Virus record (IMG/VR): IMGVR_UViG_3300008259_000298
Span: 1-21,726 of that record
Direction: 5' to 3' (one strand)
DNA length: 21,726 bases
From: a virus
Shown here: piece after piece, positions 5,566 to 21,726 of the stretch
How positions within the stretch are numbered: position 1 is the stretch's first letter
How the letters are laid out: the number at the start of each line of letters is the position of its first letter
Notes under the pieces: model-generated
The model's database searches: none
What the model was told of the DNA's origin: nothing
The model's input: only the letters and a program-made list of their open reading frames with translations
Made by a program: the position numbers and the translations under genes

Positions 5566-5566
5566 C

Positions 5567-6301: not shown

Positions 6302-6314
6302 TTTTTATCCTCTT

Positions 6315-7372: not shown

Positions 7373-7499
7373 TTGCCTTCTCCATTTGTTTTTTTTCTTT
7401 TTTTAATTCTGCTTCCCTAATTGCTTGTTTTAATTTTTCTGCAAAAACGCTCTCACCTAACTTTGTACTAAGAGATTTTTCTTTATTTGAAAAGTTCAT
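7353..7499 (-). CDS. Small lysine/glutamate-rich helical protein (48 aa)
   Basis: ATG at 7499 overlaps the upstream stop as ATGA and the stop lies 20 bases inside the next gene. NFSNKEKSLSTKLGESVF leads into a highly charged helix (KLKQAIREAELKKEKKQM) and a run of lysines. Contains long A-runs that make indel errors likely, but the frame is continuous. Function unknown. Confidence 0.5.
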   Translation of the reverse strand: MNFSNKEKSLSTKLGESVFAEKLKQAIREAELKKEKKQMEKANEKKKD

Positions 7500-7651
7500 T
7501 TTTTCTTAGTGTTTATAATTTTTTTTAATTCATTGTAAATAGCCTTATCATAGCTAGATACTTTTGAGCCTGAGAATTCTTGGGTGATTATAAATTTCTC
7601 TATAATATGTAATGAACCCTTCAGTATATCTAATGAGACTTTTTTATACAT
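7496..7651 (-). CDS. Small helical protein (51 aa)
   Basis: ATG at 7651 directly follows the upstream stop; its own TGA overlaps the next ATG. Sequence SLDILKGSLHIIEKFIITQEF, a short SGSKVSSYDKAIY stretch, then NELKKIINTKKK. Two helices of mixed character. No family recognised; supported by the tight packing with neighbours. Confidence 0.5.
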   Translation of the reverse strand: MYKKVSLDILKGSLHIIEKFIITQEFSGSKVSSYDKAIYNELKKIINTKKK

Positions 7652-7744
7652 CTAATTTATTATCCAGTTTAATAATATTATACTTGACCAGCCCAAACCA
7701 ATAGCAATTAAAAATGCTATTCCTTCTTTAGTTTCTTTATTCAT
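7652..7744 (-). CDS. Tiny single-span membrane protein (30 aa)
   Basis: NKETKEG then one hydrophobic segment (IAFLIAIGLGWSSIILLNWII) ending in N. Its start overlaps the upstream stop as ATGA and AAGGAG-like bases are absent. Likely a small inner-membrane protein translated by coupling. Confidence 0.45.
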   Translation of the reverse strand: MNKETKEGIAFLIAIGLGWSSIILLNWIIN

Positions 7745-7827
7745 TTGTAGTTCTCCCATATTAATATTGTTAATATAACTGCGAAGCAAAACCAAGCAAA
7801 TCCCAAATCAGATATTAATTCAATCAT
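7741..7827 (-). CDS. Tiny single-span membrane protein (28 aa)
   Basis: Hydrophobic segment LGFAWFCFAVILTILIW between a short acidic start (MIELISD) and ENYK. ATGA overlaps at both ends: with the gene upstream (stop at 7824) and the one downstream (start at 7744). The double overlap is the main support for coding. Confidence 0.45.
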   Translation of the reverse strand: MIELISDLGFAWFCFAVILTILIWENYK

Positions 7828-8006
7828 TTTTTGAATCCTTGCTTTGTTAGCATTCCATTTAATTTTTCAATTAAATTAGTCATGCGCTTTTTAGTGTTTA
7901 TTCCTTTTACTTCATTATCTAATAAGATTTTAGTCATGCAGCCAACTAAAAGCCGCATTTCATTAAAACTCATTGAGCAAATCACGCCTATTTCTCTATT
8001 TGCCAT
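7824..8006 (-). CDS. Hypothetical small protein (60 aa)
   Basis: MANREIGVICSMSFNEMRLL, then VGCMTKILLDNE, then a basic helical end (KKRMTNLIEKLNGMLTKQ). A helical protein with no recognised family. Its start lies 19 bases inside the upstream 32-aa gene, its stop overlaps the next start. Confidence 0.5.
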   Translation of the reverse strand: MANREIGVICSMSFNEMRLLVGCMTKILLDNEVKGINTKKRMTNLIEKLNGMLTKQGFKK

Positions 8007-8086
8007 AATGTTTTAAATATTCTTTTTTTTTTGATTGGACACCAATACCCATAGTAGCCGGTTATTGTTTTTTTCTTTTTTTTCAT
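7988..8086 (-). CDS. Tiny basic protein (32 aa)
   Basis: ATG at 8086 has a perfect AAGGAG five bases upstream and overlaps the stop of the gene before it (ATGA). Begins with a run of five lysines, then TITGYYGYWCPIKKK and an aromatic/basic end. The coding strand has A-runs of 7, 8 and 10, so the frame is sensitive to sequencing error: a one-base change in the 10-A run would shift the C-terminus. Function unknown. Confidence 0.45.
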   Translation of the reverse strand: MKKKKKTITGYYGYWCPIKKKRIFKTLWQIEK

Positions 8087-8247
8087 TCTATCTCCTTTTT
8101 TGGTTTATCCTCTTTGTAGTCATATTCAAGATTAGTAACATTGAAAAAAGATAATTTAATAAATTGCTTAAATTTCTTTATCATGTCTTCTATATCCTCT
8201 TGGTTACAATGAGAATTCCATTTGATGTTGCATTTATAGTTTTTCAT
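8083..8247 (-). CDS. Hypothetical small protein (54 aa)
   Basis: ATG at 8247 with GGAG six bases upstream. KCNIKWNSHCNQEDIEDMIK, then KFKQFIKLSFFNVTNLEYDY, then a charged tail. Two cysteines and one histidine are not enough to call a zinc site. The arrangement is a short strand-helix-strand domain. It begins 14 bases inside the upstream nuclease-like gene and its TGA overlaps the next ATG. Confidence 0.5.
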   Translation of the reverse strand: MKNYKCNIKWNSHCNQEDIEDMIKKFKQFIKLSFFNVTNLEYDYKEDKPKKEIE

Positions 8248-8626
8248 TTAATCTCCATTGGTTTAAGTATTCGCTCATTTTAATTAAAACACATTTGCTT
8301 GCTTTATTATCTCCCAGCATAACTTCTTTATAGTTTCCTCTTTTAACAATGCTTTTTAATCTATTAACTGCAATAACTGTAATGCCAACTAAGTCATCTC
8401 CATCATAAAAGCTATGAACCCAATACTTAGCATGAGTTCCATTTAAGCCTGATTTCTTGCCATAGGATTCTAATTCAATGCACACATTTCCAGTCTTCTT
8501 CCAATAATCTCTTTCAGATTTACATTCAAACTTATCTTTAGACATTCCTAAGAAAGCAGCAACAGATTTCTCGTTCTCTATTCCTTTAGCTAAATCAAAA
8601 TCAAATTTAGAATCATTATTAAACAT
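8234..8626 (-). CDS. Probable PD-(D/E)XK-type nuclease-like protein
   Basis: 130 residues. After an N-terminal helix with E17 (KGIENEKSVAAFLGM) comes FECKSERDYWKKTGNVCIE, then ELESYGKKSGLNGTHAKYW. The strand F-E-x-K, followed by a turn with TGN and a second strand ending in E, with SG..T.A.YW downstream, matches a group of small phage restriction-fold nucleases as I recall them. Likely catalytic residues are the glutamate and lysine of ECK. The TAATG overlap with the upstream gene and AAGGA ribosome site support the start. Substrate unknown. Confidence 0.6.
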   Translation of the reverse strand: MFNNDSKFDFDLAKGIENEKSVAAFLGMSKDKFECKSERDYWKKTGNVCIELESYGKKSGLNGTHAKYWVHSFYDGDDLVGITVIAVNRLKSIVKRGNYKEVMLGDNKASKCVLIKMSEYLNQWRLNEKL

Positions 8627-8796
8627 TAAAATCCTTTTTTAATTAATTTCTTAATTACTTTGACTGCTTGTTTTTTGTTCTCAACTACCCAGAATCTATT
8701 TTTGTTTGTTTTTTTTGCAGATGGCGCAAAATTTATTAATTCATCTTTTGTAAATTCTGCAACAGTTCTGTCTTTTAAGTCAATTATATAAGCCAT
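8626..8796 (-). CDS. Hypothetical small protein (56 aa)
   Basis: Start set at ATG 8796, six bases after GGAG; an ATG four codons earlier (8808) lacks a site and itself supplies the GGAG. MAYIIDLKDRTVAEFTKDEL is strand-helix, then RFWVVENKKQAVKVIKKLI. The C-terminus is strongly basic (KKLIKKGF). A small alpha/beta protein; no family recognised. Confidence 0.6.
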   Translation of the reverse strand: MAYIIDLKDRTVAEFTKDELINFAPSAKKTNKNRFWVVENKKQAVKVIKKLIKKGF

Positions 8797-8807
8797 ATTA
8801 TTCTCCA

Positions 8808-9053
8808 TTATATTGTTTTGTATATTTTTCTGTGATTAAGATTTGTTTGTGCTGTTTCTCTCACCGCATAAACAAGGCATTGATTATACCAGCGATTGCC
8901 ACTTACTTTTCTGGCCAGCTTTAATGCCTTTTTGTAGGTTTTTGCTTTTCTATTTATTTTATTGCGACGATTAGTAATAGAAAAATAATCTGGTTTTTCT
9001 AGCACCCATAAATCACGCTCATTAAAAGCAAGATATTTGTTATTTATTTTCAT
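8808..9053 (-). CDS. Hypothetical basic protein (81 aa)
   Basis: ATG at 9053 overlaps the upstream stop as ATGA; a TTG two codons earlier is not needed. Sequence MKINNKYLAFNERDLWVLEK, then a basic stretch (NRRNKINRKAKTYKKALKLA) and RWYNQCLVYAVRET. The distribution of R/K in the middle would suit nucleic-acid binding, but this is only composition. No family recognised. Confidence 0.55.
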   Translation of the reverse strand: MKINNKYLAFNERDLWVLEKPDYFSITNRRNKINRKAKTYKKALKLARKVSGNRWYNQCLVYAVRETAQTNLNHRKIYKTI

Positions 9054-9304
9054 ATCCAACTTTCTTTTCCATGCTCAACATAACATTCTCCATAAATTGA
9101 ACTTATGTAATGGACATATTTATTTTCACATTGATTTTGATAATAATTTTTTGCATCTTTTTTAGCTGTTGTTTTTGTATAAACTCCATCATCAAAAGAA
9201 ATTAAGATAGCTTTAGCTTCATCATCAATAATTTGATTTTGAAACTTGATTGGTAAATTATTAAAATCTATATTTTCTTTTATGACTTTTATTTTTTCTT
9301 TCAT
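9050..9304 (-). CDS. Hypothetical protein (84 aa)
   Basis: Start set at ATG 9304, preceded by AAGGA at 7 bases; the frame is open further upstream to 9379 but that part runs inside the next gene. KEKIKVIKENIDFNNLPIKF, then an acidic strand (EAKAILISFDDGVYTKT) and a Y-rich region (YYQNQCENKYVHYISSIYGE). Small mixed fold, no family recognised. Confidence 0.55.
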   Translation of the reverse strand: MKEKIKVIKENIDFNNLPIKFQNQIIDDEAKAILISFDDGVYTKTTAKKDAKNYYQNQCENKYVHYISSIYGECYVEHGKESWI

Positions 9305-9318
9305 ATTTTCTTCCTTTG

Positions 9319-9507
9319 TTAATTTGATTTTTTTAATTCTTCTAATGCTAATAAATATAACCCCTGAGTAACTGTCCAATAATGTGAATTATTAACATCA
9401 TCACATAAATAAGAGTTATTATTTATTGCCTCTTTAACTAAAGAGTATTTTTTTTCAGAAAATAATTTTCTTATATTTCCTAAAGTTGCTTTTGCTTGGC
9501 TTGTCAT
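9319..9507 (-). CDS. First gene of the leftward operon (62 aa, hypothetical)
   Basis: AAGGAG with 6-7 bases to the ATG, the best ribosome site in the operon, and the first gene after the divergent promoter. MTSQAKATLGNIRKLFSEKK, then YSLVKEAINNNSYLCDDV and a terminal helix (GLYLLALEELKKSN). First-expressed early phage genes often interfere with host regulation, but nothing here shows a specific target. Confidence 0.6.
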   Translation of the reverse strand: MTSQAKATLGNIRKLFSEKKYSLVKEAINNNSYLCDDVNNSHYWTVTQGLYLLALEELKKSN

Positions 9508-9535
9508 ATTTATCTCCTTTTAGTTATATGCAAAT

Positions 9536-9564
9536 AATATAATTTACTAATTTAGTTAATTCAA
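9536..9564 (-). promoter_or_regulatory. Sigma70-like promoter for the leftward operon
   Basis: On the minus strand: -35 TTGAAT (9564-9559), 17-base spacer, -10 TATATT (9541-9536). Transcription would start near 9528, about 20 bases before the AAGGAG ribosome site of the gene starting at 9507. A second perfect -10 hexamer, TATAAT, lies upstream at 9593-9588 without a good -35. Confidence 0.6.
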
Positions 9565-9573
9565 GCGTAATAA

Positions 9574-9601
9574 TTGAGAAAAACATCATTATAGCTAAAA
9601 T
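9574..9601 (+). promoter_or_regulatory. Sigma70-like promoter for the rightward operon
   Basis: TTGAGA (9574-9579), 16-base spacer, TAAAAT (9596-9601): five of six consensus bases in each box. Back to back with the leftward promoter, the -35 boxes about 10 bases apart, so one bound regulator could affect both. The start near 9608 would give a leader of about 100 bases before the ATG at 9712. Confidence 0.5.
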
Positions 9602-9656
9602 AATTTGTTTTAAATTCAATAAGTTAAACTGTTGCTATTATGTTCCACTTTTGATA

Positions 9657-9691
9657 CTAGGAATTGTGGTGCTATGCCTTCCTAGCACCAC
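9657..9691 (+). promoter_or_regulatory. Two mutually exclusive hairpins in the rightward leader
   Basis: Hairpin A: CTAGGAA (9657-9663) with TTCCTAG (9679-9685), 7 bp. Hairpin B: GTGGTGCTA (9666-9674) with TAGCACCAC (9683-9691), 9 bp with an 8-base loop. They share 9683-9685 and cannot coexist. CCTA (9681-9684) can also pair with TAGG at 9701-9704, which forms part of the ribosome site before the ATG at 9712. The leader could therefore act as a translation or transcription switch. No ligand or protein is indicated. Confidence 0.5.
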
Positions 9692-9711
9692 GCTAAATAA
9701 TAGGATATTTA

Positions 9712-9852
9712 ATGCCACTTATAAAAGGTTATTCATCTGCCAGCATAGCAAAAAACATAAAAAGAGAAATGAAGACAAAGCCAACAAAGCAGGCTATTGC
9801 TATTGCTCTTTCTGTGGCCAGAGCCGCAAAGAAAAAAGCTAAGAAAAAATGA
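9712..9852 (+). CDS. Small basic conserved phage protein (46 aa)
   Basis: Begins MPLIKGYSSASIAKNIKREM and continues with a short alanine-rich helix (KQAIAIALSVARAAKKK). The pattern MPLIKG-S...I..NI..EM..GKP..QA.AIALS.AR is recurrent in small phage proteins. The ribosome site AGGA lies 7 bases upstream; the stop overlaps the next ATG. A longer frame at 9651-9842 on the same strand is out of phase and is a shadow. Function unknown, possibly nucleic-acid binding. Confidence 0.7.
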   Translation: MPLIKGYSSASIAKNIKREMKTKPTKQAIAIALSVARAAKKKAKKK

Positions 9853-10217
9853 TTTTAAAAAAGAAGGCTATCAAATCACTTGCTCATTTAAAATGGGTAT
9901 CTAAAAACTATCATTGTATAATCTGTAAAAACCCTGAAATTCAAGTTTGCCATATAAGAAATTTGCCATTTGGAAATGTTGGCTTGGCAGTTAAGAATGA
10001 TGCCTTTGTAACACCTATGTGTTATCCGCATCATTTAGAGCAGCACAGAATGAATGAAAAAAAGTTCTGGGAGAAATATAAAATAAATCCTATATATATT
10101 TCCTATAAATTAGCTTGTAATAGTCCATGTAAAAAGATACAAAAATTAATAACAGAAGGATATTATGACGAATACATATCAAGATATTTTGGAGACAACA
10201 AAGAAAGTGCTTTGTAA
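9849..10217 (+). CDS. DUF968/HNH-type nuclease-like protein
   Basis: 122 residues with a zinc/HNH arrangement: C23-x2-C26 (HCIICKNP), C34-H35 (VCHIRN), then a conserved stretch to C58 and H61-H62 (VTPMCYPHHLEQH66) and KKFWEKYKINP. C-x2-C...H...C-x2-H-H...H with a following W-x-x-x...NP is typical of the DUF968 / phage Ref-like HNH group, some of which act as recombination-associated nucleases. ATGA-coupled to the gene before. The last 53 bases overlap the next gene. Confidence 0.75.
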   Translation: MILKKKAIKSLAHLKWVSKNYHCIICKNPEIQVCHIRNLPFGNVGLAVKNDAFVTPMCYPHHLEQHRMNEKKFWEKYKINPIYISYKLACNSPCKKIQKLITEGYYDEYISRYFGDNKESAL

Positions 10218-10437
10218 TTCAAAATTATATAACAAAGTTAATTTCTTTAAAGTTCCATTTAATAAAATAGGCGTAACAGTTATTAGAAATATAACAAAAG
10301 ATTCTTATGCCAACATAGGAAAGCATTTTAATAAAAGCTGGTTTAGTTGTTATGCTGCTGTTCAAAATTGCTCTAAAAATGGATTGAAGGCTTTTACTGA
10401 AGAAGTTATATCTTTAGTAAAAAAAGAAATGAAATGA
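10165..10437 (+). CDS. DnaA domain IV-like protein without AAA+ domain
   Basis: 90 residues, AGAAGGA four to five bases before the ATG, inside the end of the nuclease gene. The part FFKVPFNKIGVTVIRNITKD, then SYANIGKHFNKSWFSCYAAVQNC, resembles the C-terminal DNA-binding domain of DnaA (helix, S-Y-x-x-I-G-x-x-F, recognition helix). The D-H-[ST]-T-V signature that contacts DnaA boxes is replaced by WFSCYAA, so box recognition may differ. A replication or origin-recognition role beside the wHTH protein is inference. Confidence 0.6.
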   Translation: MTNTYQDILETTKKVLCNSKLYNKVNFFKVPFNKIGVTVIRNITKDSYANIGKHFNKSWFSCYAAVQNCSKNGLKAFTEEVISLVKKEMK

Positions 10438-11009
10438 CTGAGGGTTGGATAGCTTTACATAGAAAGATTTATAATTCTAAAGATTTTAATAATCAATTAG
10501 AAGTTGCTGTATTTTTATATCTAGTTGCTATGGCATCTCATAAACCAACCCAGATTATTTATAGAAAAAAGAAAATAAATCTTAAAAGAGGAGAAATTTC
10601 AATAGCTTATAGGGATTTGGCAAAAAAGTTTGGCATTTCTTTTGATAAAATTAGAACTATAATTAAAAACTTAAAAGCATCAGGCAATATCAATCAAACT
10701 TTACACAAACGATTAAGCGTTTTTAGCATTGTAAAATATAGCAAATATCAAGATTTGCCGGCGCAGCCCAATCAAAATATCCCACACAGAACAACAACTA
10801 TTACTAACTATACTACTAGTATAGGTAAAAATATGTTAAGTCTTAGTAAAATGGCTGATAAACCAAATAAAATTCATATCCCTATTCTGCAAAACCTAAA
10901 GACTAAAATTATAGAAAAACCTAGAAACAAGAACGAATGGGAAATTGGCAAGGAGAAACTTGATGCTCAGGATTATGAGAAATGGGTGCTGCGCAAATTA
11001 AACTCTTGA
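10434..11009 (+). CDS. Winged-helix replication initiator-like protein
   Basis: 191 residues. The N-terminal ~110 residues have the layout of phage replisome-organiser/DnaD-like N-terminal domains: GWIALHRKI, then LEVAVFLYLVAMASHKP, KINLKRGEISIAYRDLAKKF, DKIRTIIKNLKASGNI, ending in SIVKYSKYQDL. The middle is polar and threonine/asparagine-rich, and the C-terminus has a short helix (KEKLDAQDYEKWVLRKL) where a helicase-loading motif might sit. ATGA-coupled to the DnaA-like gene. Replication initiation or helicase loading is likely; no primase motifs. Confidence 0.7.
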   Translation: MTEGWIALHRKIYNSKDFNNQLEVAVFLYLVAMASHKPTQIIYRKKKINLKRGEISIAYRDLAKKFGISFDKIRTIIKNLKASGNINQTLHKRLSVFSIVKYSKYQDLPAQPNQNIPHRTTTITNYTTSIGKNMLSLSKMADKPNKIHIPILQNLKTKIIEKPRNKNEWEIGKEKLDAQDYEKWVLRKLNS

Positions 11010-11014
11010 TTTAA

Positions 11015-11044
11015 TTGACTATTTTATTCTTTAAAAATTATATA
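11015..11044 (+). promoter_or_regulatory. Candidate sigma70-like promoter
   Basis: TTGACT (11015-11020), 18-base spacer, TATATA (11039-11044) in the 97-base gap after the replication gene. AT-rich sequence continues to the AAAAGGAG ribosome site of the next gene. Confidence 0.4.
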
Positions 11045-11106
11045 TTTACATAACTTCAAAATAACTTTAATAAATTTGCCACCAAACTAACAAAAGGAGT
11101 GTGGGA

Positions 11107-11298
11107 ATGAAAATAGAAAAAATAATAGCTAAACTTGAAAAAAGCCAAGATAAAATCAATCAAGAATTTGATGCTTTAAGAGAAATGCTTGAAGACCATC
11201 TTGAAGAAATGGAATCAGAGGAAACTTATGATGACTCTGAGGATATGGACGAAGATTTTTCTGAAGACGAAGATTTAGATTCGTCTGACGAGGACTAA
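11107..11298 (+). CDS. Small coiled-coil protein with strongly acidic tail
   Basis: 63 residues from ATG 11107, seven bases after GGAG; the GTG at 11101 is too close to the site. Residues 1-36 form a charged helix (KIEKIIAKLEKSQDKINQEF, then LREMLEDHLEEM). The remaining part is almost wholly D/E/S (for example DDSEDMDEDFSEDEDLDSSD). Such tails occur in DNA-mimic or anti-restriction proteins and in chaperone or partner-binding domains; which applies is not shown. Strong ribosome site and own promoter candidate suggest high expression. Confidence 0.6.
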   Translation: MKIEKIIAKLEKSQDKINQEFDALREMLEDHLEEMESEETYDDSEDMDEDFSEDEDLDSSDED

Positions 11299-11325
11299 CC
11301 TCAATCACAGATAAGCTGCAAAGCT

Positions 11326-11343
11326 GGAAGGTTATCTAACCTT
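11326..11343 (+). promoter_or_regulatory. Hairpin holding GGAAGG before the GH73 gene
   Basis: AAGGTTA (11328-11334) and TAACCTT (11337-11343) are perfectly complementary. GGAAGG at 11326-11331 is the only Shine-Dalgarno-like sequence upstream of ATG 11349, is 17 bases away and partly inside the stem. Initiation may be poor or conditional. Confidence 0.4.
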
Positions 11344-11348
11344 TAAAA

Positions 11349-11963
11349 ATGAACTCAAAAATACTTAGTATAAAACTATGGGACTATTCTATTGTCTGCT
11401 TATTTTTATCTTCTGTTTTTGTGCTTGGAACATTCTTTCCGAATTCTAGCACCAAAGAAAAAATTAGAAATAGCACTATTGAAGAAATAAGAAAGATAGG
11501 CTTCTTTGAACCAAAAGTTGATAATAGTTCTGGCGAAAAATTTATAGTTAGCATGAAAAAATGTATCGCCTATATCAACCTAGACTTAGATAAAAAAGAA
11601 CAAATACCAACAGCATTAATAATTGCACAATCTATTGTTGAATCAAATTTTGGAACAAGCAGATTTGCATTGGAAGGTAATGCTCTCTTTGGCGTAAGAG
11701 TTTGGTCAAAAAATGGACTTTTGCCGCTTAAACAAGACGAATCAATTAAGTGGAGAATTAAGACATATAAAACTAAATGCCAATCAGTTAAGGATTATAT
11801 AAGCATATTAAATAACAATCATCATTATCAAGAATTCCGCCAAACAAGGCAAAGAACTAAAGACCCTTTGATATTAGCAGAAACCTTAGACAATTTTTCT
11901 ACTAGCTTAGAATATACAAATCATGTTAGACAGGTATTAATTAAATACAAAAACAAGTTATGA
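11349..11963 (+). CDS. Membrane-anchored GH73/Bax-type peptidoglycan hydrolase
   Basis: 204 residues. An N-terminal anchor at about 14-30 (SIVCLFLSSVFVLGTFF) precedes the catalytic domain. E98 in IAQSIVESNFGTSRFA is the expected acid of glucosaminidase/Bax domains, followed by LEGNALFGVRVW, then KTYKTKCQSVKDYI and LNNNHHYQEFR. The family cleaves peptidoglycan glycan strands. It is far from the M15 endolysin and in a replication region, so an early or signal-anchor-release lysis role, superinfection effect or wall remodelling are alternatives. Stop overlaps the next ATG. Confidence 0.7.
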   Translation: MNSKILSIKLWDYSIVCLFLSSVFVLGTFFPNSSTKEKIRNSTIEEIRKIGFFEPKVDNSSGEKFIVSMKKCIAYINLDLDKKEQIPTALIIAQSIVESNFGTSRFALEGNALFGVRVWSKNGLLPLKQDESIKWRIKTYKTKCQSVKDYISILNNNHHYQEFRQTRQRTKDPLILAETLDNFSTSLEYTNHVRQVLIKYKNKL

Positions 11964-12058
11964 TTAAAATTTTAATCAATATAAATAAATATTTAGAAAT
12001 TATTATTTGGAAGCATTTTAACAAACTTAGAAACAAGAGATTAAAAAATGGCAAATGA
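11960..12058 (+). CDS. Tiny basic protein (32 aa)
   Basis: ATGA-coupled to the GH73-type gene. Sequence KILININKYLEIIIWKHF followed by a basic tail (NKLRNKRLKNGK). A short amphipathic helix with a lysine/arginine end; could be membrane-associated. No family recognised. Confidence 0.4.
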   Translation: MIKILININKYLEIIIWKHFNKLRNKRLKNGK

Positions 12059-12158
12059 AACCACTTCAAGCAGTCTTGCGGTCTTATATACCAATCGCAA
12101 ATCCAAAGGGACTTATAGAGTTTATAAAACTAAAAAGATGCCTAGAAAGAAAAAATGA
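12048..12158 (+). CDS. Small basic protein (36 aa)
   Basis: ATG 12048 overlaps the previous gene by 11 bases and its TGA overlaps the next ATG (12155). Sequence MANETTSSSLAVLY, then NRKSKGTYRVYKTKK and a basic end. The first eight residues are identical to those of the capsid protein at 19365, though the codons differ. Another frame, 12055-12183, competes for the same DNA; the end overlap favours this one. Confidence 0.45.
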   Translation: MANETTSSSLAVLYTNRKSKGTYRVYKTKKMPRKKK

Positions 12159-12183
12159 AAAAACCAATTTGGGAAAGAAATAG
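12055..12183 (+). CDS. Alternative overlapping small frame (42 aa)
   Basis: Starts ATGA-coupled to the 11960-12058 gene and runs to TAG at 12181. Sequence KPLQAVLRSYIPIANPKGL, then IEFIKLKRCLERK, a plausible helical protein. It competes with the frame 12048-12158. Given only sequence, either or both might be translated; listed at low confidence. Confidence 0.25.
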   Translation: MKPLQAVLRSYIPIANPKGLIEFIKLKRCLERKNEKTNLGKK

Positions 12184-12328
12184 GCCAGCAAGTTTAGGAA
12201 AGCCAAAACCCTTTAATAAAAAATCTAAAGCCTATAAAACAGCTAGGCGTTCTGCCGGTCAAAAATTTGGCAAGAAAAGCAGCTTTGTTAAAAATTTATA
12301 TATTGCCAAGAAATTGAAATTAAAATGA
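12155..12328 (+). CDS. Small basic protein (57 aa)
   Basis: ATGA at both ends, coupling it to neighbours. MKKPIWERNRPASLGKPKP, then a K/R/S-rich region (SKAYKTARRSAGQKFGKKSS) and FVKNLYIAKKLKLK. The high positive charge suits DNA or RNA binding. Similar in style to the DUF6321-like protein at 14482. No named family can be assigned with confidence. Confidence 0.55.
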   Translation: MKKPIWERNRPASLGKPKPFNKKSKAYKTARRSAGQKFGKKSSFVKNLYIAKKLKLK

Positions 12329-12648
12329 ATATAGACAAAATAGTTTTTGGAAGCAGAACTGTTAAGTTAGATTTCATAGACAAAGACACAGCAGATAAGA
12401 AAAAAATTTTTGGAGAGTTCCACCCTGACAAGAATGAAATAACTTTAGATAAATCTTTAGATAATATGCAGCTTATTAATACACTCATGCACGAATTAAA
12501 TCATTTATTGTTTGATGAATATAAACTTGAGTTAAGCGCAAAATCAGAGGAGTTAGTATGCAACAGCCTAGCAAATGGAATGTGTCATATTTTATATCAA
12601 AACCAAGACTTACTTGACTTTCTTTACAAATCCCTAAAAAAAGACTAA
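12325..12648 (+). CDS. Small HExxH zinc metallopeptidase-like protein
   Basis: 107 residues, ATGA-coupled. H56-E57-L-N-H60 in TLMHELNHLLFDE is a zinc-protease signature, with a likely third ligand at E75/E76 (KSEELVCNSLANG) after a helix, as in minimal gluzincin or ImmA-like folds. The N-terminus has short strands (KIVFGSRTVKLDFID, GEFHPDKNEITLDKS). ImmA-like phage proteins can cleave repressors; other phage forms are tail- or host-targeting. The substrate is not indicated. Confidence 0.7.
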   Translation: MNIDKIVFGSRTVKLDFIDKDTADKKKIFGEFHPDKNEITLDKSLDNMQLINTLMHELNHLLFDEYKLELSAKSEELVCNSLANGMCHILYQNQDLLDFLYKSLKKD

Positions 12649-12654
12649 AGAACA

Positions 12655-12677
12655 ATTAACGAACATAATCGGTTAAT
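12655..12677 (+). promoter_or_regulatory. Inverted repeat just before the ParB-like gene
   Basis: ATTAAC (12655-12660) and GTTAAT (12672-12677) are perfect complements with an 11-base spacer, ending at the base before ATG 12678, where no Shine-Dalgarno is visible. It could be an operator or a hairpin at the start site. Short and AT-rich, so chance is possible. Confidence 0.3.
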
Positions 12678-13289
12678 ATGGAATTAGTTAAAAAGAAGGT
12701 ATCTGAATTAATACCCTACATAAACAACAGTAGGAATCATAGTGAAGAACAAATAACTCAAATTGCATCAAGTATAAAAGAATTTGGATTTACTAATCCT
12801 ATTTTAATTGACCAAGACAACTCAATCATAGCTGGTCATGGAAGATTGCAGGCAGTTAAAAAATTAGGATATGAGGAAGTTTCTTGTATTGTAATTTCTG
12901 GGCTATCAAAGACTCAAATCAAAGCACTAATTATAGCCGATAATCAATTAGCATTAAATGCAAGCTGGGACATAGATAAACTATCTTTAGAACTAGACAG
13001 TCTAAAAGATGATAATTTTAATTTAGATATATTAGGATTTAATAATGACTTCTTAAAAGATATTCAGGAAGAAATAATCCCATTGTCAGATTTGCCGGAA
13101 ATAAAAGATGGCGATAAAGAACCATTCCAACAAATGACATTTATTATCCATGACTCTCAAATCAAGTTTATTAATCTAGCATTAGAGAAGGTTAAAAGTA
13201 AATTTGACTTAAAGAATGAATATAATCAGAACATTAATGGAAATGCTATAACAGAAATATGCAAGAATTTTTATGAATCTCACAGCTAA
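12678..13289 (+). CDS. ParB/Srx-like nuclease-domain protein
   Basis: 203 residues. The N-terminal domain reads SELIPYINNSRNHSEEQITQ, SSIKEFGFTNPILIDQDNSI, then IAGHGRLQAVKKLGYEEVSC and ADNQLALNASWD: the ParB-like fold with the GHGR nucleotide/phosphate-binding loop. The C-terminal part (QMTFIIHDSQIKF, NGNAITEICKNF) is found on phage ParB-like proteins next to DNA-modification genes. Unlike ParB-methylase fusions there is no methyltransferase. Overlaps the Mom-like gene by 17 bases, suggesting a joint role in DNA modification or its regulation. Confidence 0.75.
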   Translation: MELVKKKVSELIPYINNSRNHSEEQITQIASSIKEFGFTNPILIDQDNSIIAGHGRLQAVKKLGYEEVSCIVISGLSKTQIKALIIADNQLALNASWDIDKLSLELDSLKDDNFNLDILGFNNDFLKDIQEEIIPLSDLPEIKDGDKEPFQQMTFIIHDSQIKFINLALEKVKSKFDLKNEYNQNINGNAITEICKNFYESHS

Positions 13290-13974
13290 AGACATCATAG
13301 TTAAAGCTATATCTTCTCAGGACGCCAATAAGATAGTTAAAAGAATTCATTATTCAGGCAAGGTTGTGCAGAATTCTATATTGCATCTAGGAGTATTCTT
13401 AGACAATAAACTTCATGGTGCTATGCAATTTGGAAACCCAATAGATAAAAGAAAAGTGCTGCCATTAGTCAAAGATACTAAATGGAATAATATGTTAGAA
13501 TTAAACAGAATGGCTTTTAATGATATTCTCCCAAGAAATAGTGAAAGCAGAGCTTTAGGAGTAGCATTTAGATTAATTAAAAAGAATTACCCTCATATAG
13601 AATGGATTTTATCATTCTCTGATGGAACTCAATGTGGAGATGGAACTATTTATAGAGCAAGTGGATTTGTATTAACCGGCATAAATAAAAATCAAACAAT
13701 CCACGAGCTGCCTACTGGAGAAATAGTAGCCAAGCATGGAACATCTAAAAGAGATTTTACTGGAAGCAAAAGACTTCAGGGTTATCAATTAAGATATATT
13801 TACTTTCTCAACCCAAAAGCTAAAGAAAGATTAACAGTTCCAATAATCCCATTTTCAAAAATATATGAAATAGGGGCAGGAATGTATAAAGGTTTGCGAG
13901 TGCCTAATAGTAGGGTTTCTGACGACCAGTTAGAAAAAGATGGTGCGAATCCAATCCACTCGCTCCACAAATGA
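13273..13974 (+). CDS. Mom-like DNA-modification acyltransferase
   Basis: 233 residues resembling phage Mu Mom (GNAT-like fold): RIHYSGKVVQNSILHLGVF, a second strand (KLHGAMQFGNP), then MLELNRMAFNDILPRNSESR, ALGVAFRLIKKNYPHIEWIL, SFSDGTQCGDGTIYRASGF and the C-terminal stretch. Mom converts adenine to a carbamoylmethyl derivative that blocks many restriction enzymes. The family link rests on the overall motif order, not on a confirmed active site. It lies directly before terminase genes, so modification would precede packaging. Confidence 0.7.
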   Translation: MNLTAKDIIVKAISSQDANKIVKRIHYSGKVVQNSILHLGVFLDNKLHGAMQFGNPIDKRKVLPLVKDTKWNNMLELNRMAFNDILPRNSESRALGVAFRLIKKNYPHIEWILSFSDGTQCGDGTIYRASGFVLTGINKNQTIHELPTGEIVAKHGTSKRDFTGSKRLQGYQLRYIYFLNPKAKERLTVPIIPFSKIYEIGAGMYKGLRVPNSRVSDDQLEKDGANPIHSLHK

Positions 13975-13975
13975 T

Positions 13976-14335
13976 ATGGATAATAAAAAAGTTGGAAGAC
14001 CAAAATTAAATATAGACCCTGAAACAGTAAGAAAATTAGCTAGATTACATTGTAGCATGGAAGAAATGGCTAGCTTTTTTGGCTGCCATAGAGATACTTT
14101 GCACAATAATTTTTCAGCAGAAATAGACAAAGGGAGAGCAGAGGGTAATATATCTCTTAGAAGGAAACAATGGCAGATGGCAGTAGAGAAGGGTAATGTT
14201 GTAATGTTAATCTGGCTCGGTAAGCAAATGCTAGGTCAAGTTAATGAAAGACTAGATTCTGATTCTGATGCACCATTACCAATTTATGATATAGTAGAAG
14301 AACCTAAAGAAATAATAGAATCTAAAAATGAGTAA
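13976..14335 (+). CDS. Small terminase-like DNA-binding protein
   Basis: 119 residues from ATG 13976, one base after the Mom-like stop; a TTG at 13940 would overlap that gene. Begins KKVGRPKLNIDPETVRKLA, then a helix-turn-helix (CSMEEMASFFGCHRDTLHNN), a basic helix (GRAEGNISLRRKQWQMAVEK), then VVMLIWLGKQMLGQ and an acidic tail (EEPKEIIESKNE). This is the layout of short TerS-type proteins next to TerL. It would bind the packaging site and load TerL. Four short genes separate it from TerL. Confidence 0.7.
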   Translation: MDNKKVGRPKLNIDPETVRKLARLHCSMEEMASFFGCHRDTLHNNFSAEIDKGRAEGNISLRRKQWQMAVEKGNVVMLIWLGKQMLGQVNERLDSDSDAPLPIYDIVEEPKEIIESKNE

Positions 14336-14489
14336 ATGTTTATTTTGTAAAAAAGAAATGCTAAATAAATTAGAGCAGCATATAAAAGCGTGTAATGGTT
14401 GCATTGTTAAATTGTTAATGAAGAAACATAATCTAAAAATAAGACAGCCTGCACCGCCAATTATAGTTAAAAGTAAATTAAATGATTAA
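14328..14489 (+). CDS. Small zinc-finger-like protein (53 aa)
   Basis: Overlaps the small terminase by 8 bases. C4-x2-C7 (KCLFCKKEM) and C22-x2-C25 (KACNGCIVK), with H18 between, form a possible four-cysteine zinc site. The second half is basic and proline-containing (RQPAPPIIVKSKL). Such tiny zinc proteins occur in phage packaging regions, some linked to HNH nucleases; no catalytic residues here. Overlaps the next gene by 8 bases. Confidence 0.55.
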   Translation: MSKCLFCKKEMLNKLEQHIKACNGCIVKLLMKKHNLKIRQPAPPIIVKSKLND

Positions 14490-14805
14490 ATTTGCATTAA
14501 GAAAATCAGACAAAAACCCAAAAGGTGGTTTGACATCATCAGGCAGAGCAAGATACAATAGAGCAACTGGAAGTAATTTAAGACCACCAGTCAAAGATAG
14601 GCCAAATAGACTTTCTGAATATAGGCGCAAAGGTTCATTCCTAGTTAGAATGGGAAGTTCACAAGGAAGACTCTATGATGATAAGGGTAGAAAAACTAGG
14701 TTGAAACTAAGTTTAGAGGCGTGGGGTTATAAAGGCAAAAGTAAATCTGAAGCAGTAGCTTTAGGCAGAAGATATTTGAGGGCATATCAGAATAAAAAAA
14801 AGTAG
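14482..14805 (+). CDS. DUF6321-like basic protein
   Basis: 107 residues. KSDKNPKGGLTSSGRARYNR, then ATGSNLRPPVKD, then RRKGSFLVRMGSSQG and DDKGRKTRLKLSLEAWGY. The string NPKGGLT..GR..YNRATG..L.PPV with a later S-F-x-x-R-M and K-G-R-x-T-R-x-x-x-x-L is the DUF6321 pattern as I recall it. Highly basic; DNA- or virion-associated role is possible. Between the terminase subunits, as small accessory genes often are. Confidence 0.65.
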   Translation: MIKFALRKSDKNPKGGLTSSGRARYNRATGSNLRPPVKDRPNRLSEYRRKGSFLVRMGSSQGRLYDDKGRKTRLKLSLEAWGYKGKSKSEAVALGRRYLRAYQNKKK

Positions 14806-15026
14806 TGGAATATTTTGTTATATTCTTCTTGCTTATATTTAATGGGCAGGAATATAGGCCAGTCTTTTTAAAAATGGAAGATAATAGAAGATTTAAGACT
14901 TTAGAAGATTGCTATAAATTCGGCGATAAACAAGCTGATTTAATTATAGAAACTTTAAACGAACAAGGTATAGTATATAAAGATTTGGTATTCAAATGTG
15001 TGGAAGAAAAAAGCCAAGAAATATGA
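14805..15026 (+). CDS. Hypothetical protein with N-terminal hydrophobic segment
   Basis: 73 residues from a GTG overlapping the previous stop by one base. The first ~13 residues (EYFVIFFLLIFNG) are a short membrane or signal segment without a lipobox. The rest reads RPVFLKMEDNRRFKTLEDCY, then GDKQADLIIETLNEQGIV, ending KDLVFKCVEEK, with two cysteines that could form a disulphide if exported. No family recognised. Confidence 0.55.
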   Translation: MEYFVIFFLLIFNGQEYRPVFLKMEDNRRFKTLEDCYKFGDKQADLIIETLNEQGIVYKDLVFKCVEEKSQEI

Positions 15027-15172
15027 TTGATAGGAAGCAAAGAGGTTCTAACGATTTAGAAGTTGTCATTCACGATTTAAAAAAAGAAATAGATAGACTG
15101 AACGAGGAAGTCCAAGCAAAACAAATTGAAATAAAACTTCTAGAAGAAGCTATTAATAACAAACCAGAGTAA
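15023..15172 (+). CDS. Small coiled-coil protein (49 aa)
   Basis: ATGA-coupled to the preceding gene. DRKQRGSNDLEVVIHDLKKE, then IDRLNEEVQAKQIEIKLLEE: a continuous coiled coil of about 35 residues. It ends 7 bases before TerL. Could be a terminase accessory or simply a small helical factor; no direct evidence. Confidence 0.5.
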   Translation: MIDRKQRGSNDLEVVIHDLKKEIDRLNEEVQAKQIEIKLLEEAINNKPE

Positions 15173-15179
15173 TTAGGTT

Positions 15180-16412
15180 ATGTCTTTTAGCAAACCTCAA
15201 CTTGCTGTTTATACTTGTCCCAATAGATTTAGAGTTTTAATTACTGGCAGAAGATTCGGTAAGACTCATTTAGCTATGTATGAACTATTAAGATTCGCCA
15301 GCCGCAAACCCAATTCAAAGATATTCTATGTTGCACCCACTTACAGAATGGCTAAGGAAATTATGTGGAAGCAATTAAAGAAAAAAGTAACTGAGCATAA
15401 ATGGATTAAATATGCCAATGAAACAGAACTATCCTTAACATTAAGGAATGGAAGCCAGATAAGTCTTAAAGGCGCAGATAAATCTCCTGATAATTTAAGA
15501 GGAGTTGGTTTAGATTTTTTATTACTTGACGAATATGCAGATATTCCTTTTGAGGCTTGGTCAGAAGTTTTGAGGCCAACTATTTCAGACCGCCATGTAA
15601 CTGGAAATGTATTATTTGTTGGAACGCCTAGAGGCTTTGGAAATTGGTCTTATGAGATATATCAAAAAGGTTTAGGCGCAGACCCAGAATGGAAGTCTTT
15701 TAAATATACAACATTAGATGGCGGTCAAGTAGACCAAGATGAAATTGACCAAGCTATGAAAGATTTAGATGAAAGAACATTTAGACAAGAATATATGGCT
15801 AGCTTTGAAACATATAGTGGAGTTGTTTATTATAATTTTAGCAGAGATGATAATGTTAGAAAATGCACTTATGACAAAGATTCAATTATTCATGTGGGAC
15901 TCGACTTTAACATTGACCCCATGAGTGCTTGCTTATTTCATATTAAGAACGGAAACATAGAAGTCTTTGATGAAATAGTAATATATAGTTCAAATACTGA
16001 CGAATTTATTGATGAATTGCTATCAAGATATAATAAAAACAAAATAATTATTTACCCTGACCCAGCTTCTAGACAAAGAAAAACATCTGCCGGCGGTAGA
16101 ACCGATTTAACCATCTTGCAAAATGCCGGATTTATTGTTAAATGTAAATCTACTCATGCTTTAGTAAGAGATAGAATTAACTCTGTGAATTCTAAATTGA
16201 AAGCATTTGATGGTAAGAGAAGTATCTTTATAGATGGTTCTTGCAAAACATTGATTAATAGTCTAATGAAACAAATTTACAAAGAAGGCACAACGCAACC
16301 AGAAAAGAATAACGGATATGACCATATGACTGACGCTCTAGGGTATGCAATAGAATTTTTATTTCCGATTACTTCCAATCTTCCAAAATCACAACCTAAG
16401 AGATTTTCATAA
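15180..16412 (+). CDS. terL: Terminase large subunit
   Basis: 410 residues, a normal length. Walker A is GRRFGKT at 23-29, Walker B the hydrophobic strand ending D117-E118 (LDFLLLDEYADI), with motif III near VLFVGTPRG. The C-terminal nuclease has the first acidic strand HVGLDFNIDPMS at about 240, then YPDPASRQRK and the final DHMTDALGYAIEF, whose aspartates complete the metal site. It powers packaging into the procapsid and cuts DNA at ends. Stop overlaps the portal start (TAATG). The gene looks intact. Confidence 0.9.
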   Translation: MSFSKPQLAVYTCPNRFRVLITGRRFGKTHLAMYELLRFASRKPNSKIFYVAPTYRMAKEIMWKQLKKKVTEHKWIKYANETELSLTLRNGSQISLKGADKSPDNLRGVGLDFLLLDEYADIPFEAWSEVLRPTISDRHVTGNVLFVGTPRGFGNWSYEIYQKGLGADPEWKSFKYTTLDGGQVDQDEIDQAMKDLDERTFRQEYMASFETYSGVVYYNFSRDDNVRKCTYDKDSIIHVGLDFNIDPMSACLFHIKNGNIEVFDEIVIYSSNTDEFIDELLSRYNKNKIIIYPDPASRQRKTSAGGRTDLTILQNAGFIVKCKSTHALVRDRINSVNSKLKAFDGKRSIFIDGSCKTLINSLMKQIYKEGTTQPEKNNGYDHMTDALGYAIEFLFPITSNLPKSQPKRFS

Positions 16413-16588
16413 TGGCATATTCAAGACAAGAAATGGAAAGGCAACATTCTCAATATCAGGGAATGATTACAAGATGGGAATATTTTATTCGTTCATATTT
16501 AGGCGGCAAAGAATACAAAGATGGAAAATTTTTACAGCAATATAAATTAGAATTAATGCTTCTATCTATGGACATTGTTGGGTGCTAG
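16412..16588 (+). pseudogene. Portal protein, N-terminal fragment (frameshift/deletion)
   Basis: Starts TAATG-coupled to terL, as a real portal start would. Encodes AYSRQEMERQHSQYQGMITR, then WEYFIRSYLGGKEYKDGKFL and QYKLEL, the opening of this portal family, and then meets TAG at 16586. The rest of the portal continues in another frame. The break of sense is near 16553-16557: upstream frame reads YKLEL, downstream frame reads NASIYGHCW. Relatives as I recall them carry roughly 75-80 residues between these points, so this is a deletion plus frame change, not a single-base slip. Confidence 0.65.
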
Positions 16589-17601
16589 TAGATAAGCCAT
16601 CAACTAATGTTTATACGAGAGCAGAAGAATTAGAACAAGGAATTAGACCCTATTTAAATATCTATACTCCTGAAAATATTTATGACTGGCATTATTCAAG
16701 AAGCGACTCAGGATATTATGTTTTAGATTATTTAAAAATTAGAGAGTCAATAGATGAGAATGGAGAATATTTTAAACTTTGGTATTTAGATAAAATTGAT
16801 ACAGTTTATGTTTCATCTAAAAATAGAGATGAGCCTAAATTAATTGAATCGCTGCCAAATCCAATAAACAGAATTCCAGCAGTTATTATTTACAATCAAA
16901 GAAGTCCAATGAGAGGTATTGGAGTATCTGATTTAACTGACATAGCTGATTTACAAAAAGCAATTTACAATGAACTGTCTGAGATTGAACAAATTATTAG
17001 AATATCAAACCACCCTTCATTAGTTAAGACAAGAGATACTGACGCTACTGCTGGCGCAGGTTCTATTATAGAAATTCCTGATAACATTGATGCTAATTTA
17101 AAACCTTATATTTTACAACCAAGTGGAAGTAATTTAGATGGTGTATTAAAATCTATTGAGCATAAAGTTGATGCAATAAATAGATTATCTCATGTTGGCG
17201 CAATTAGAGCGACTGGAGAAAGAATACAATCTGGCATAGCGCTAAGAACCGAATTCCAATTATTAAATGCTAAACTTGCTGAGAAAGCAAAACTTATGGA
17301 ATTAGCAGAAGAACAAATTTGGAGATTATATGCTATCTGGCAAGAAGAACAATTTGATGGCAAAATAACTTATCCAACATCATTTGACATTAGAGATTGG
17401 GCAACTGACTTAGAATTATTACAACAAGCTAAAACAAGTAATATTAAATCATCTACTTTCAATAAAGAATTAGATAAACAAATTGCAAGAACAGTAATTG
17501 ATGATGACGAAACATTAGTTGTTATTGATTCTGAGATTGAGCAAAATACTCAGGCATTAGGAGAATTTCCACAGCAACCTATAACTTTACCAACAGTTTA
17601 A
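16582..17601 (+). CDS. Portal protein, main part (339 aa from GTG)
   Basis: Frame is open from 16546; the first usable start is GTG 16582, giving 339 residues. Family signatures: VLVDKPSTN, ELEQGIRPYLNIYTPENIYD, IPAVIIYNQRSPMRGIGVSD, DIADLQKAIYNELSEIEQII, RISNHPSLVKT, then GAGSIIEIPD and INRLSHVGAIRATGERIQSG, LNAKLAEKAKLMELAEEQ. The portal forms the dodecameric ring at the head vertex through which DNA moves. The N-terminal part, encoded in a different frame at 16412-16588, is cut off here. Whether GTG is ever used is unknown. Confidence 0.8.
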   Translation: MLVDKPSTNVYTRAEELEQGIRPYLNIYTPENIYDWHYSRSDSGYYVLDYLKIRESIDENGEYFKLWYLDKIDTVYVSSKNRDEPKLIESLPNPINRIPAVIIYNQRSPMRGIGVSDLTDIADLQKAIYNELSEIEQIIRISNHPSLVKTRDTDATAGAGSIIEIPDNIDANLKPYILQPSGSNLDGVLKSIEHKVDAINRLSHVGAIRATGERIQSGIALRTEFQLLNAKLAEKAKLMELAEEQIWRLYAIWQEEQFDGKITYPTSFDIRDWATDLELLQQAKTSNIKSSTFNKELDKQIARTVIDDDETLVVIDSEIEQNTQALGEFPQQPITLPTV

Positions 17602-17602
17602 T

Positions 17603-18565
17603 GTGGCAACTCTTTTACAAGAACTTCAGGCAATAAGAGCAAAAGCAATAACCTCATTAGAGGATAAGCAACAAGAATTATTAATCAAAGCATTACAACA
17701 ATTAGAAAATAAAGTTGTTGAGACTGCACTTAATCTTCCTAATAGAAATGGAATTTTATTTGATACAAGACTTGCAATAGAGATTAGACCAAAATTACAA
17801 CAAGCAATAGAAGAACTATATTTAACTAAAGTCCAAACATTCATAAATGATTATGATAAGATTGCTGCAAACATTGTAGCGACTTATGGTAAGCTGCCAA
17901 TTCCTGCTGAGTTTAAACAAATCACAGAAATAGATTTGCAAGTTATCCAGCAGCTTAAAAAAATATCATTTAGTCAATTTCAAAATCTAGGAAATGAATT
18001 TGTAAATACTTTAGCGAATGAAGTTTATCAATCCACTTTAACCGGCAGGCCAGTTGTTGAAATGGTGCAAACTTTAAGAAGTAAAATTAATGGCATCTAT
18101 CAGCAATCAGATAATAAAAAAGCGCAAGAGTTAGTAGATTATATCGCCAACAATCCTAATGGCGCAGAAGTAAATACTGCTGTTAGCGAATTACAAACAA
18201 TCTATGGTAGAGATAGACTAGGAGATAACCTTAATAGATATGCAACTCAAATAGTTCAAGATTCTTTAATGGGTTTTGATGGCCAGTTTGCAAAGTTTAG
18301 AGCCGACCAATTAGGCTTAACTAGCTATGTTTATTATGGCTCAATCATTAGAGATAGTAGAGATTTCTGCATAGAAAATGCTAATAAGATATTTACTGAA
18401 GATGAAATTAGACAGAAATGGGCTGATGAAACATGGCAAGGCAAAGCACAAGGAGACCCATTTGTAGTTAGAGGTGGTTATAATTGCAGGCATCATTTCC
18501 AACCAGTCAATCCTGACTGGGGTATTGTCAATGAAGATGGCACTTTTGAATATACTTTAGAATAA
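17603..18565 (+). CDS. MuF-type minor head protein
   Basis: 320 residues from GTG 17603, overlapping nothing but following the portal stop by one base. The long N-terminal half is helical. The C-terminal domain shows the Mu gpF / SPP1 gp7 pattern: SYVYYGSIIRDSRDFCIENA, FTEDEIRQKWADETWQG, then DPFVVRGGYNCRHHFQPVNP. The conserved R-D-x-R-x-x-C and the N-C-R-H-x-x-x-P are present. Such proteins join portal and scaffold during head assembly and may be ejected with DNA. Confidence 0.85.
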   Translation: MATLLQELQAIRAKAITSLEDKQQELLIKALQQLENKVVETALNLPNRNGILFDTRLAIEIRPKLQQAIEELYLTKVQTFINDYDKIAANIVATYGKLPIPAEFKQITEIDLQVIQQLKKISFSQFQNLGNEFVNTLANEVYQSTLTGRPVVEMVQTLRSKINGIYQQSDNKKAQELVDYIANNPNGAEVNTAVSELQTIYGRDRLGDNLNRYATQIVQDSLMGFDGQFAKFRADQLGLTSYVYYGSIIRDSRDFCIENANKIFTEDEIRQKWADETWQGKAQGDPFVVRGGYNCRHHFQPVNPDWGIVNEDGTFEYTLE

Positions 18566-18627
18566 TAATTGCATTTTTACCGCACTACTGATAATTGAAT
18601 AATATTAATCAAGAAGGAGAACAAAAA

Positions 18628-19364: not shown

Positions 19365-20129
19365 ATGGCAAACGAAACAACAAGTTCAACTCTTAGTATT
19401 ACTTCTTCAGGTAAAACTGTTGAAGTTCCTGTGTACCCTTCAATCACTGCTTCAGCAGTAAATGAAGCAACTGATTTATCAAACACAGCAATCAACCCAA
19501 CTTCAGCTACTATTACAGCTAGTGAGACGGGCGTGATGACTACATTAACAGACCTAGCAAGAGATTCAGCTAGCAGAAATGTAGCTGCTGACATTGGTCA
19601 ATTATTCGGTAACGCTATCGCTCAGAAAGTTGATACTGATTTAGTTGGATTGTTTGTGAACTTTACTACTAACGAAGTAGGTGCCGCAGCAGTTGAATTA
19701 GATGCAGATTTAATTTTCAAAGCTGTTGCTAAACTAAGAATGCAAAATGTACCAGCACCTCTTTATGGTGTATTCCACCCAAGAGCTGTGTACAATTTGA
19801 AAAAATCTTTAACGCAAGCTGGATATAATACAAATGCAAATGCAATTTCTGAACTAGGAAATGAAATTTTAAGAAATAATTTCATTGGAACAGTTGCAGG
19901 AGTTCAAATATTTGAAAACGCAAATATTACTCCAGATGCAAATGATGATGCTTATGGTGCAGTATTTCACCCAGCTTCATTAGGCTTAGCTATCAAAGAA
20001 GACTTTAAAGTGGAGACTCAAAGAGACGCCTCACTTAGAGCAACAGAAGTGGTGGCCAGCATAGTATATGGTAAAGGTGCAATCAAACAATCTTATGGTT
20101 GTGCGGTTATTACTGATACTACTATCTAA
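19365..20129 (+). CDS. Major capsid protein (HK97-fold type), apparently short at N-terminus
   Basis: 254 residues. Signatures: GKTVEVPVYPSITASAV, NEATDLSNTAINPTSATIT, ETGVMTTLTDLARDSASRNV, AADIGQLFGNAIAQKVDTDL, ELGNEILRNNFIGTVAGVQI and VETQRDASLRATEVVASIVY. Order and spacing fit the capsid proteins of this phage group, whose N-terminus is typically MANETTSSTL followed by some 35-40 residues (an N-arm and helix) before the segment that starts at about residue 12 here. That segment seems missing with the frame kept. The remainder looks intact. Confidence 0.85.
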   Translation: MANETTSSTLSITSSGKTVEVPVYPSITASAVNEATDLSNTAINPTSATITASETGVMTTLTDLARDSASRNVAADIGQLFGNAIAQKVDTDLVGLFVNFTTNEVGAAAVELDADLIFKAVAKLRMQNVPAPLYGVFHPRAVYNLKKSLTQAGYNTNANAISELGNEILRNNFIGTVAGVQIFENANITPDANDDAYGAVFHPASLGLAIKEDFKVETQRDASLRATEVVASIVYGKGAIKQSYGCAVITDTTI

Positions 20130-20180: not shown

Positions 20181-20645
20181 ATGGCAAATTTTTCAGTAGA
20201 TTCAGATTTAACATTTTACCAACCAGATATTTTAACTTTTGGAATAGCAAGTTTTACTTCTCCAAATGATTACCATGCACAAGCACGAGCAGATATTGAA
20301 AGAGATTTAAGAATAAGATGGTTTCCAGTTTATTCAAAAGAAACTTATAGAGATATATCAATCCTAAATACAACTGAAATGGACGCTACATTATTAACTG
20401 ATGCGCAATTTAAACGAGCAAGTGTTTATAAAGTAATAGGATTTTATGCTTGTCCACAATTAACTAAATTTAACTCAAACGATAACCCAGATAGATTCCA
20501 AGTTATGATGAAACATTATCAGCAAATGTATGCTGATGAATTTGAATCTATTTTAAGAGATGGTGTTGAATATGATGCTGATGATTCTAATACAATTATT
20601 GATGCAGAAAAAGCGCCATATCATAGATTAAAAGTTATCAGATGA
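20181..20645 (+). CDS. Head-tail connector (neck) protein, gp6-like position
   Basis: 154 residues. FSVDSDLTFYQPDILTFGIA, then ADIERDLRIRWFPVY, ETYRDISILNTTEMDATLLT, FKRASVYKVIGFYACPQLTK and RFQVMMKHYQQMYADEFESI: a helical adaptor-type protein. Position right after the capsid gene is that of the HK97 gp6 connector. The fold assignment is by position and pattern, not a hard motif. The stop overlaps the next start (ATGA). Confidence 0.65.
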   Translation: MANFSVDSDLTFYQPDILTFGIASFTSPNDYHAQARADIERDLRIRWFPVYSKETYRDISILNTTEMDATLLTDAQFKRASVYKVIGFYACPQLTKFNSNDNPDRFQVMMKHYQQMYADEFESILRDGVEYDADDSNTIIDAEKAPYHRLKVIR

Positions 20646-20767
20646 AAATTACAGTTCAAGACAACACCCTTCAAGTTGCCAAGAACTTTGAAAAACAAGT
20701 TAGAGAGCAACCTTTTAAATTTTTCTGGTCAAATGCTATCAAGCATGACACAAAAATCAGAGCCTAG
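20642..20767 (+). pseudogene. Head-tail gene (HK97 gp10-like), N-terminal part, frame-broken
   Basis: ATG 20642 overlaps the neck stop as ATGA. Encodes KITVQDNTLQVAKNFEKQVR, then EQPFKFFWSNAIKHDTKIRA, the opening of the gp10-type family (N-terminal strand, helix, F..S.A...T). It stops at TAG 20765. The gene end that couples to the next gene is in the +1 frame (see 20733-20921). The intact family is usually 130 or more residues; here both parts together give about 93, so residues are missing as well as the frame. Confidence 0.5.
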
Positions 20768-20921
20768 CTATGCTATTATTTTCTTTGCTAATAAATTCCA
20801 AAATATAAAAGCATTAGGCAATCAAAGCAAAAGAAGATTCTTTGCAATAGGAGATAAAGAGGCTCAACCTATTACAAATGTATTTATGCAAGAATATAAA
20901 AAACTAAGTATAATTAAATGA
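20733..20921 (+). pseudogene. Same head-tail gene, C-terminal part in the +1 frame
   Basis: Frame open from 20646; ATGs at 20733 and 20745 are the only usable ones. Sense begins near SYAIIFFANKFQNIKALGNQ, then KRRFFAIGDKEAQPITNVFM and QEYKKLSIIK. This end resembles the tail of gp10-like proteins (basic loop, then P.T...M.E...L). Its TGA overlaps the next ATG (20918), so this frame is the true end of the gene. Upstream of about 20745 in this frame the translation looks like a shadow. Confidence 0.45.
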
Positions 20922-21358
20922 GCAAACGAGAAGATATAGCAGCTAATATTATTACAACAATTCTAACTGGAACATCTCCTATAACTTTAAAGAAAGTTAC
21001 TAGAGACCCCTTTAATGTAGATGAGTTATCTGAACAACAATATCCAGCTTGTTTCGTACAATCAGGAAATGAAACTCGTTCAGATGTTACTATTTTATCG
21101 CCAAATATTACAAGACAAGCAACAGCAGATTATGTAATTGTTGGATTTGTTAAAGGCACTCCGACAAATATTGACACAAAAAGAAACGAATTAATTACAA
21201 CGATTGAAACAAGATTGAATTCTGATAGAACACGAGGTGGGTATGCGAAACAAACTCAAGTTGTTGAGGTCTCAACAGATGAGGGTGTTTTATTCCCAGT
21301 TGGTGGTATCAGAATGGTAGTGAGAGTAATGTATCAATACATTTCTGGAACACCTTAA
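20918..21358 (+). CDS. Tail terminator/completion-like protein
   Basis: 146 residues, ATGA-coupled to the broken gene. N-terminal helix (REDIAANIITTILTG), then QQYPACFVQSGNETRSDVTI, a central strand (TADYVIVGFVKGT), a helix (NELITTIETRLNSDR) and the terminal strands RMVVRVMYQYISGTP. The alternation and the final V-R-V-x-Y-x-Y strand are typical of small tail-completion proteins that cap the tail tube. Position directly before the tube gene agrees. Confidence 0.65.
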   Translation: MSKREDIAANIITTILTGTSPITLKKVTRDPFNVDELSEQQYPACFVQSGNETRSDVTILSPNITRQATADYVIVGFVKGTPTNIDTKRNELITTIETRLNSDRTRGGYAKQTQVVEVSTDEGVLFPVGGIRMVVRVMYQYISGTP

Positions 21359-21381
21359 TATAAACAAACAAGGAGAAAAAC

Positions 21382-21726
21382 ATGGCAACTCATACTGGTT
21401 CAGAAGGGCTAATTAAAATTGGTTCTACTGTTTTAGGAGAACTAAGAAGCTATACACTAGAACAAACATCAGACACTATTGAAGACAGTTCAATGGGTGA
21501 TGCAGTAAGAACTTACAAAGCAGGTTTAAAAGCAAGTTCAGGTTCAGCAAGTGTATATTTTGACGAAGCTGATGCAGGACAATTATTATGCACAGTTGGT
21601 TCAGCAATAACATTAAATTTATTCCCAGAAGGTAATACTGCTGGCGACAAATTCTATGCTGTTGATGCAATCGTAACTGGTTATAATGTAAGCGCATCAT
21701 TTGATGGAATGGTAGAAGCAGAAATT
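21382..21726 (+). CDS. Major tail tube protein (partial, runs off the window)
   Basis: ATG 21382 has AAGGAGAAAAAC just upstream. 115 residues are present, no stop. THTGSEGLIKIGSTVLGELR, then YTLEQTSDTIEDSSMGDAVR, TYKAGLKASSGSASVYFDE, and FYAVDAIVTGYNVSASFDGM: the tail-tube pattern in which E...D.S.MGD.....K..SG.A.V.FD is conserved. These subunits form the stacked hexamer rings of a siphovirus tail. The strong ribosome site fits a highly expressed protein. Confidence 0.8.
   Translation, partial: MATHTGSEGLIKIGSTVLGELRSYTLEQTSDTIEDSSMGDAVRTYKAGLKASSGSASVYFDEADAGQLLCTVGSAITLNLFPEGNTAGDKFYAVDAIVTGYNVSASFDGMVEAEI

Follow-up and report, generated by a model that had tools for sequence, protein, structure and literature searches.

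The window analyzed here comprises 21,726 nucleotides, positions 1 to 21,726 of the viral record IMGVR_UViG_3300008259_000298. In this stretch the portal gene falls into two reading frames, which raises the question of whether the phage itself lacks an intact portal or whether the gene was broken only in the record.

Coding parts of the portal gene

An ORF of 58 aa (16412-16588) starts in a TAATG directly after terL and reaches a TAG stop at 16586-16588. The conserved remainder of the portal lies in a different frame, which is open from 16546 and ends with TAA at 17599-17601. The sense before the break ends with ...QQYKLEL at 16555, and the sense after the break opens with ASIYGHCW. The first-pass annotation had described the start together with terL, the premature TAG at 16586, the remainder in another frame open from 16546 and the sense boundary YKLEL/NASIYGHCW at about 16555, all of which were confirmed; the remainder was found to run to 17601 and is a portal by profile. 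The features of this region are as follows.

15180-16412: terL (Terminase_6N, E=1.4e-17)
16412..16555, + strand: portal 5' part of 48 codons (MAYSRQ...QQYKLEL), normal up to the join; it is identical to the start of the intact copy in IMG/VR 3300042691_013376, and its N-terminus is homologous to the HTVC026P portal
16555..16556, no strand: join 1, 208 bp missing, blunt, no microhomology; the frame is shifted, so that the TAG at 16586 is reached
16556..17601, + strand: portal remainder in the other frame (open from 16546); PHROG 145 (E=9e-48) and Pfam SPP1_portal (E=7.7e-07)

The PHROG 145 portal match of the remainder covers only the profile positions 119-471 of 493, and an E-value of 2.5e-65 was obtained for an intact relative compared to 9e-48 for the window fragment. 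For SPP1_portal (PF05133), the window fragment scored 28.9 bits, which is above the curated cut-off of 25.5, and the intact relative 40.4 bits. The portal is placed between terL (15180-16412) and the head genes (capsid 19365-20129), the gene order being terL, portal, head protein gene, scaffold and capsid.

The gene of the intact relatives is 55% identical to the portal of the isolated Pelagibacter phage HTVC026P (QGZ17744.1; PHROG 145/PF05133) over 466 columns with 3 gaps. The HTVC026P portal also adjoins terL and keeps the segment that is absent from the window copy. Compared to it, the window copy lacks the residues 49-117 and shows a frame change.

The portal segment in related records

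A scan of IMG/VR with the portal remainder yielded 80 relatives with 75-99% identity. Every relative spanning the site carries 208 extra bases between the window positions 16555 and 16556; none was found without this segment, and chance does not account for the difference. The aligned extra length was 208 in 62 cases and 209 in 6 cases, a difference due to alignment ambiguity. All intact relatives with a complete gene possess an unbroken portal ORF of 465 codons (469 counted stop-to-stop), so that a single continuous frame across the whole portal is present in each of them and absent from the window copy.

A deletion with a frame change had been proposed for this site, and it is real in the record. 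The missing segment, previously estimated at 75-80 residues, stands as a segment; its size was determined to be 69 codons plus 1 base (208 bp). The alignment with homologous portals, suggested in the same place as a check, thus measured the gap, and no spanning relative was short or frame-split.

The contig 3300042691_013376 (20,407 bp) shows 0 mismatches to window positions 1-16555 and 16556-17248, yet it carries the 208 bp. All 17,248 bases common to both match, and no losses were detected in the first 16.5 kb of the window compared to this contig. The 23-mer spanning join 1 was found in no other viral contig.

Three other origins of join 1 were considered and rejected. An intron or insertion in the relatives does not apply, since the 208 bp code in frame and their residues are conserved even in HTVC026P. 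A strain chimera was dismissed because both flanks match 3300042691_013376 with 0 mismatches. For a repeat-mediated deletion, the AATTA at both edges would excise 209 bp; the actual join shares no base.

Losses elsewhere in the window and in other records

Two further losses, which the first-pass annotation did not list, were identified downstream of the portal.

19365..20129, + strand: major capsid protein gene of 254 aa without 28 codons near its start (PHROG 267, E=2.3e-20); relatives have 84 bp more, in frame
19397..19398, no strand: join 2, 84 bp missing, blunt, in frame; seen only in the window among the loci of the census described below
20713..20714, no strand: join 3, 164 bp missing from a small gene located between the head and the tail genes, blunt, frame-shifting; from the comparison with 3300042691_000242

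None of the 80 compared capsid loci lacks the 84 bp at join 2, and the extra length is exactly 84 bp in 68 of them. The closest relatives with this segment are 99% identical, and a 100% identical counterpart was not found. For join 3, the contig 3300042691_000242, a second contig of the sample that also contains 3300042691_013376, shows 0 mismatches to 20288-20713 and 20714-21726 and carries 164 bp in between. Within 4.2 kb, therefore, three losses are private to the window; two of them are frame-shifting, and all three joins are blunt with 0 bp of microhomology. The contigs of sample 3300042691 end at position 17248 and begin again at 20288 (window coordinates), which indicates that assembly of this stretch was difficult in that sample as well. 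Owing to joins 2 and 3, the ORFs 19365-20129 and 20676-20921 are not read correctly from the window record.

Length differences were also observed at other positions. Several relatives (e.g. IMG/VR 3300031857_001013) are about 613 bp longer at 10432-10437. This looks like natural variation in gene content, since a 100% identical sibling contig agrees with the window. Two further positions, 17602-17615 and 18553-18589, lie at either end of the gene 17603-18565; there, some relatives are longer by 226-320 bp or by 874-1058 bp, and the HTVC026P gene at this place is longer as well (1827 bp). The size of this head protein varies naturally.

In a census, 330 related loci (2.1 Mb) were compared for losses of 15 bp or more that are confined to a single record, including those that BLAST bridges as gaps. 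Besides the three of the window, 15 private losses of 28-251 bases were identified in 11 other records, some of which have two or three each. With the window included, 12 of about 245 distinct contigs are affected. The losses in the other records (28-251 bp) are located at L041:3090, L056:2455, L097:2748, L101:1583/8522/11803, L103:669, L119:1338, L129:1169/2532, L157:3756, L163:1338, L177:4992 and L238:2270/2703. They are possibly unmarked scaffold gaps.

The lengths of the 18 losses are distributed 6:7:5 modulo 3, as expected from a process blind to codons. Microhomology of 0, 1, 2, 3, 4 and 5 bp was found at 8, 5, 2, 2, 0 and 1 of the joins, respectively. This distribution agrees with the expectation for random breakpoints (51, 28, 13, 5 and <1% for 0, 1, 2, 3 and 5 bp).

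The private losses cluster by sample (e.g. 3300008117, 3300008259 and 3300021593); in three samples, two or more contigs are affected (P about 0.0004 by shuffling). Low-numbered, i.e. older, assemblies are enriched, with 6 of 24 affected compared to 5 of 220 elsewhere (P=1.6e-4). Sample 3300042691 is not an old assembly. No N bases occur in the 332 fetched loci (2.1 Mb), and contig-only records would look alike in this respect.

Origin of the missing bases

The broken portal is no biological feature. The split is very probably a defect of the metagenome record and not of the phage, arising where assembled pieces were joined over unmarked gaps. An artefact, one of the causes offered in the first-pass annotation, is strongly favoured, since an otherwise identical contig has the portal segment, a further two blunt losses are found within 4.2 kb, and losses of the same type, random in phase and with the microhomology of random breakpoints, occur again in other records. 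For joins 1 and 3, same-strain copies whose flanks show 0 mismatches keep the sequence missing from the window; for join 2, 99% identical relatives do so. Over the 18 events the losses are indifferent to codon phase and to repeats. There is neither an in-frame bias, as left by selection, nor an excess of microhomology, as left by recombination or template switching, which argues for gaps that were closed without a marker.

The phage population would accordingly carry an ordinary complete portal in the order terL, portal, head protein, scaffold and capsid, like the HTVC026P relatives. During assembly or later handling, pieces of the head region may have been placed end to end without the intervening unassembled bases, three times in all (16555/6, 19397/8 and 20713/4). 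A possible route would be the removal of N runs from a scaffold, or the abutting of contigs across a gap. We infer the exact technical step, which could belong to the assembler, to the processing of scaffolds or to the preparation of the collection. A literature search on stripped Ns returned nothing usable. Gap-compressed scaffolds and misjoins of metagenome assemblies resemble the present case: tens to a few hundred bases are lost bluntly, without codon phase and in clusters by sample; here, we infer the gap itself.

A real and very recent deletion variant, i.e. a defective genome with incomplete portal, capsid and connector-region genes, is quite unlikely, and the same holds for its version as a subpopulation carried or rescued by the intact, otherwise identical sibling or by helpers. 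Defective phages do exist, and the flanks of each join come from one strain, which speaks against a chimera of distant phages. However, three independent lesions within 4.2 kb would be needed, with 0 point differences over about 18 kb to the contigs carrying the segments of joins 1 and 3. Moreover, microhomology is absent at all joins, the junction is absent from other viral contigs, and the phase-less pattern recurs in many other records, clustered by sample. The defective genome previously put forward as a cause is therefore disfavoured. A copying artefact of library making (template switching or an amplification chimera) that was assembled as consensus would also be expected to leave deletions seen in a single record only. 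Jumps of this kind typically rely on short repeats, whereas the microhomology over the 18 events is that of random breakpoints, and three of them as consensus in one contig would require a high frequency. This origin is very unlikely.

It is extremely unlikely that the short or split portal is functional, either by a restart at GTG 16582 or by frameshifting that links both frames. A 339-aa ORF with portal similarity does begin at this GTG, the internal start considered in the first-pass annotation; the codon is a plain valine codon in the intact relatives and no Shine-Dalgarno-like sequence lies upstream, and this start was rejected. With frameshifting, the 69 residues found conserved in HTVC026P would still be missing. 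The split form is shared with no relative, and an intact copy is present in the same strain (3300042691_013376).

With the split read as a defect of the record, no biology should be read into the broken head gene. In a small share of the viral contig collection, between tens and hundreds of bases are missing without any mark in the sequence. Such silent losses can be mistaken for frameshifts, short capsid proteins or defective genomes, and both ORF calls and protein families will be distorted by them.
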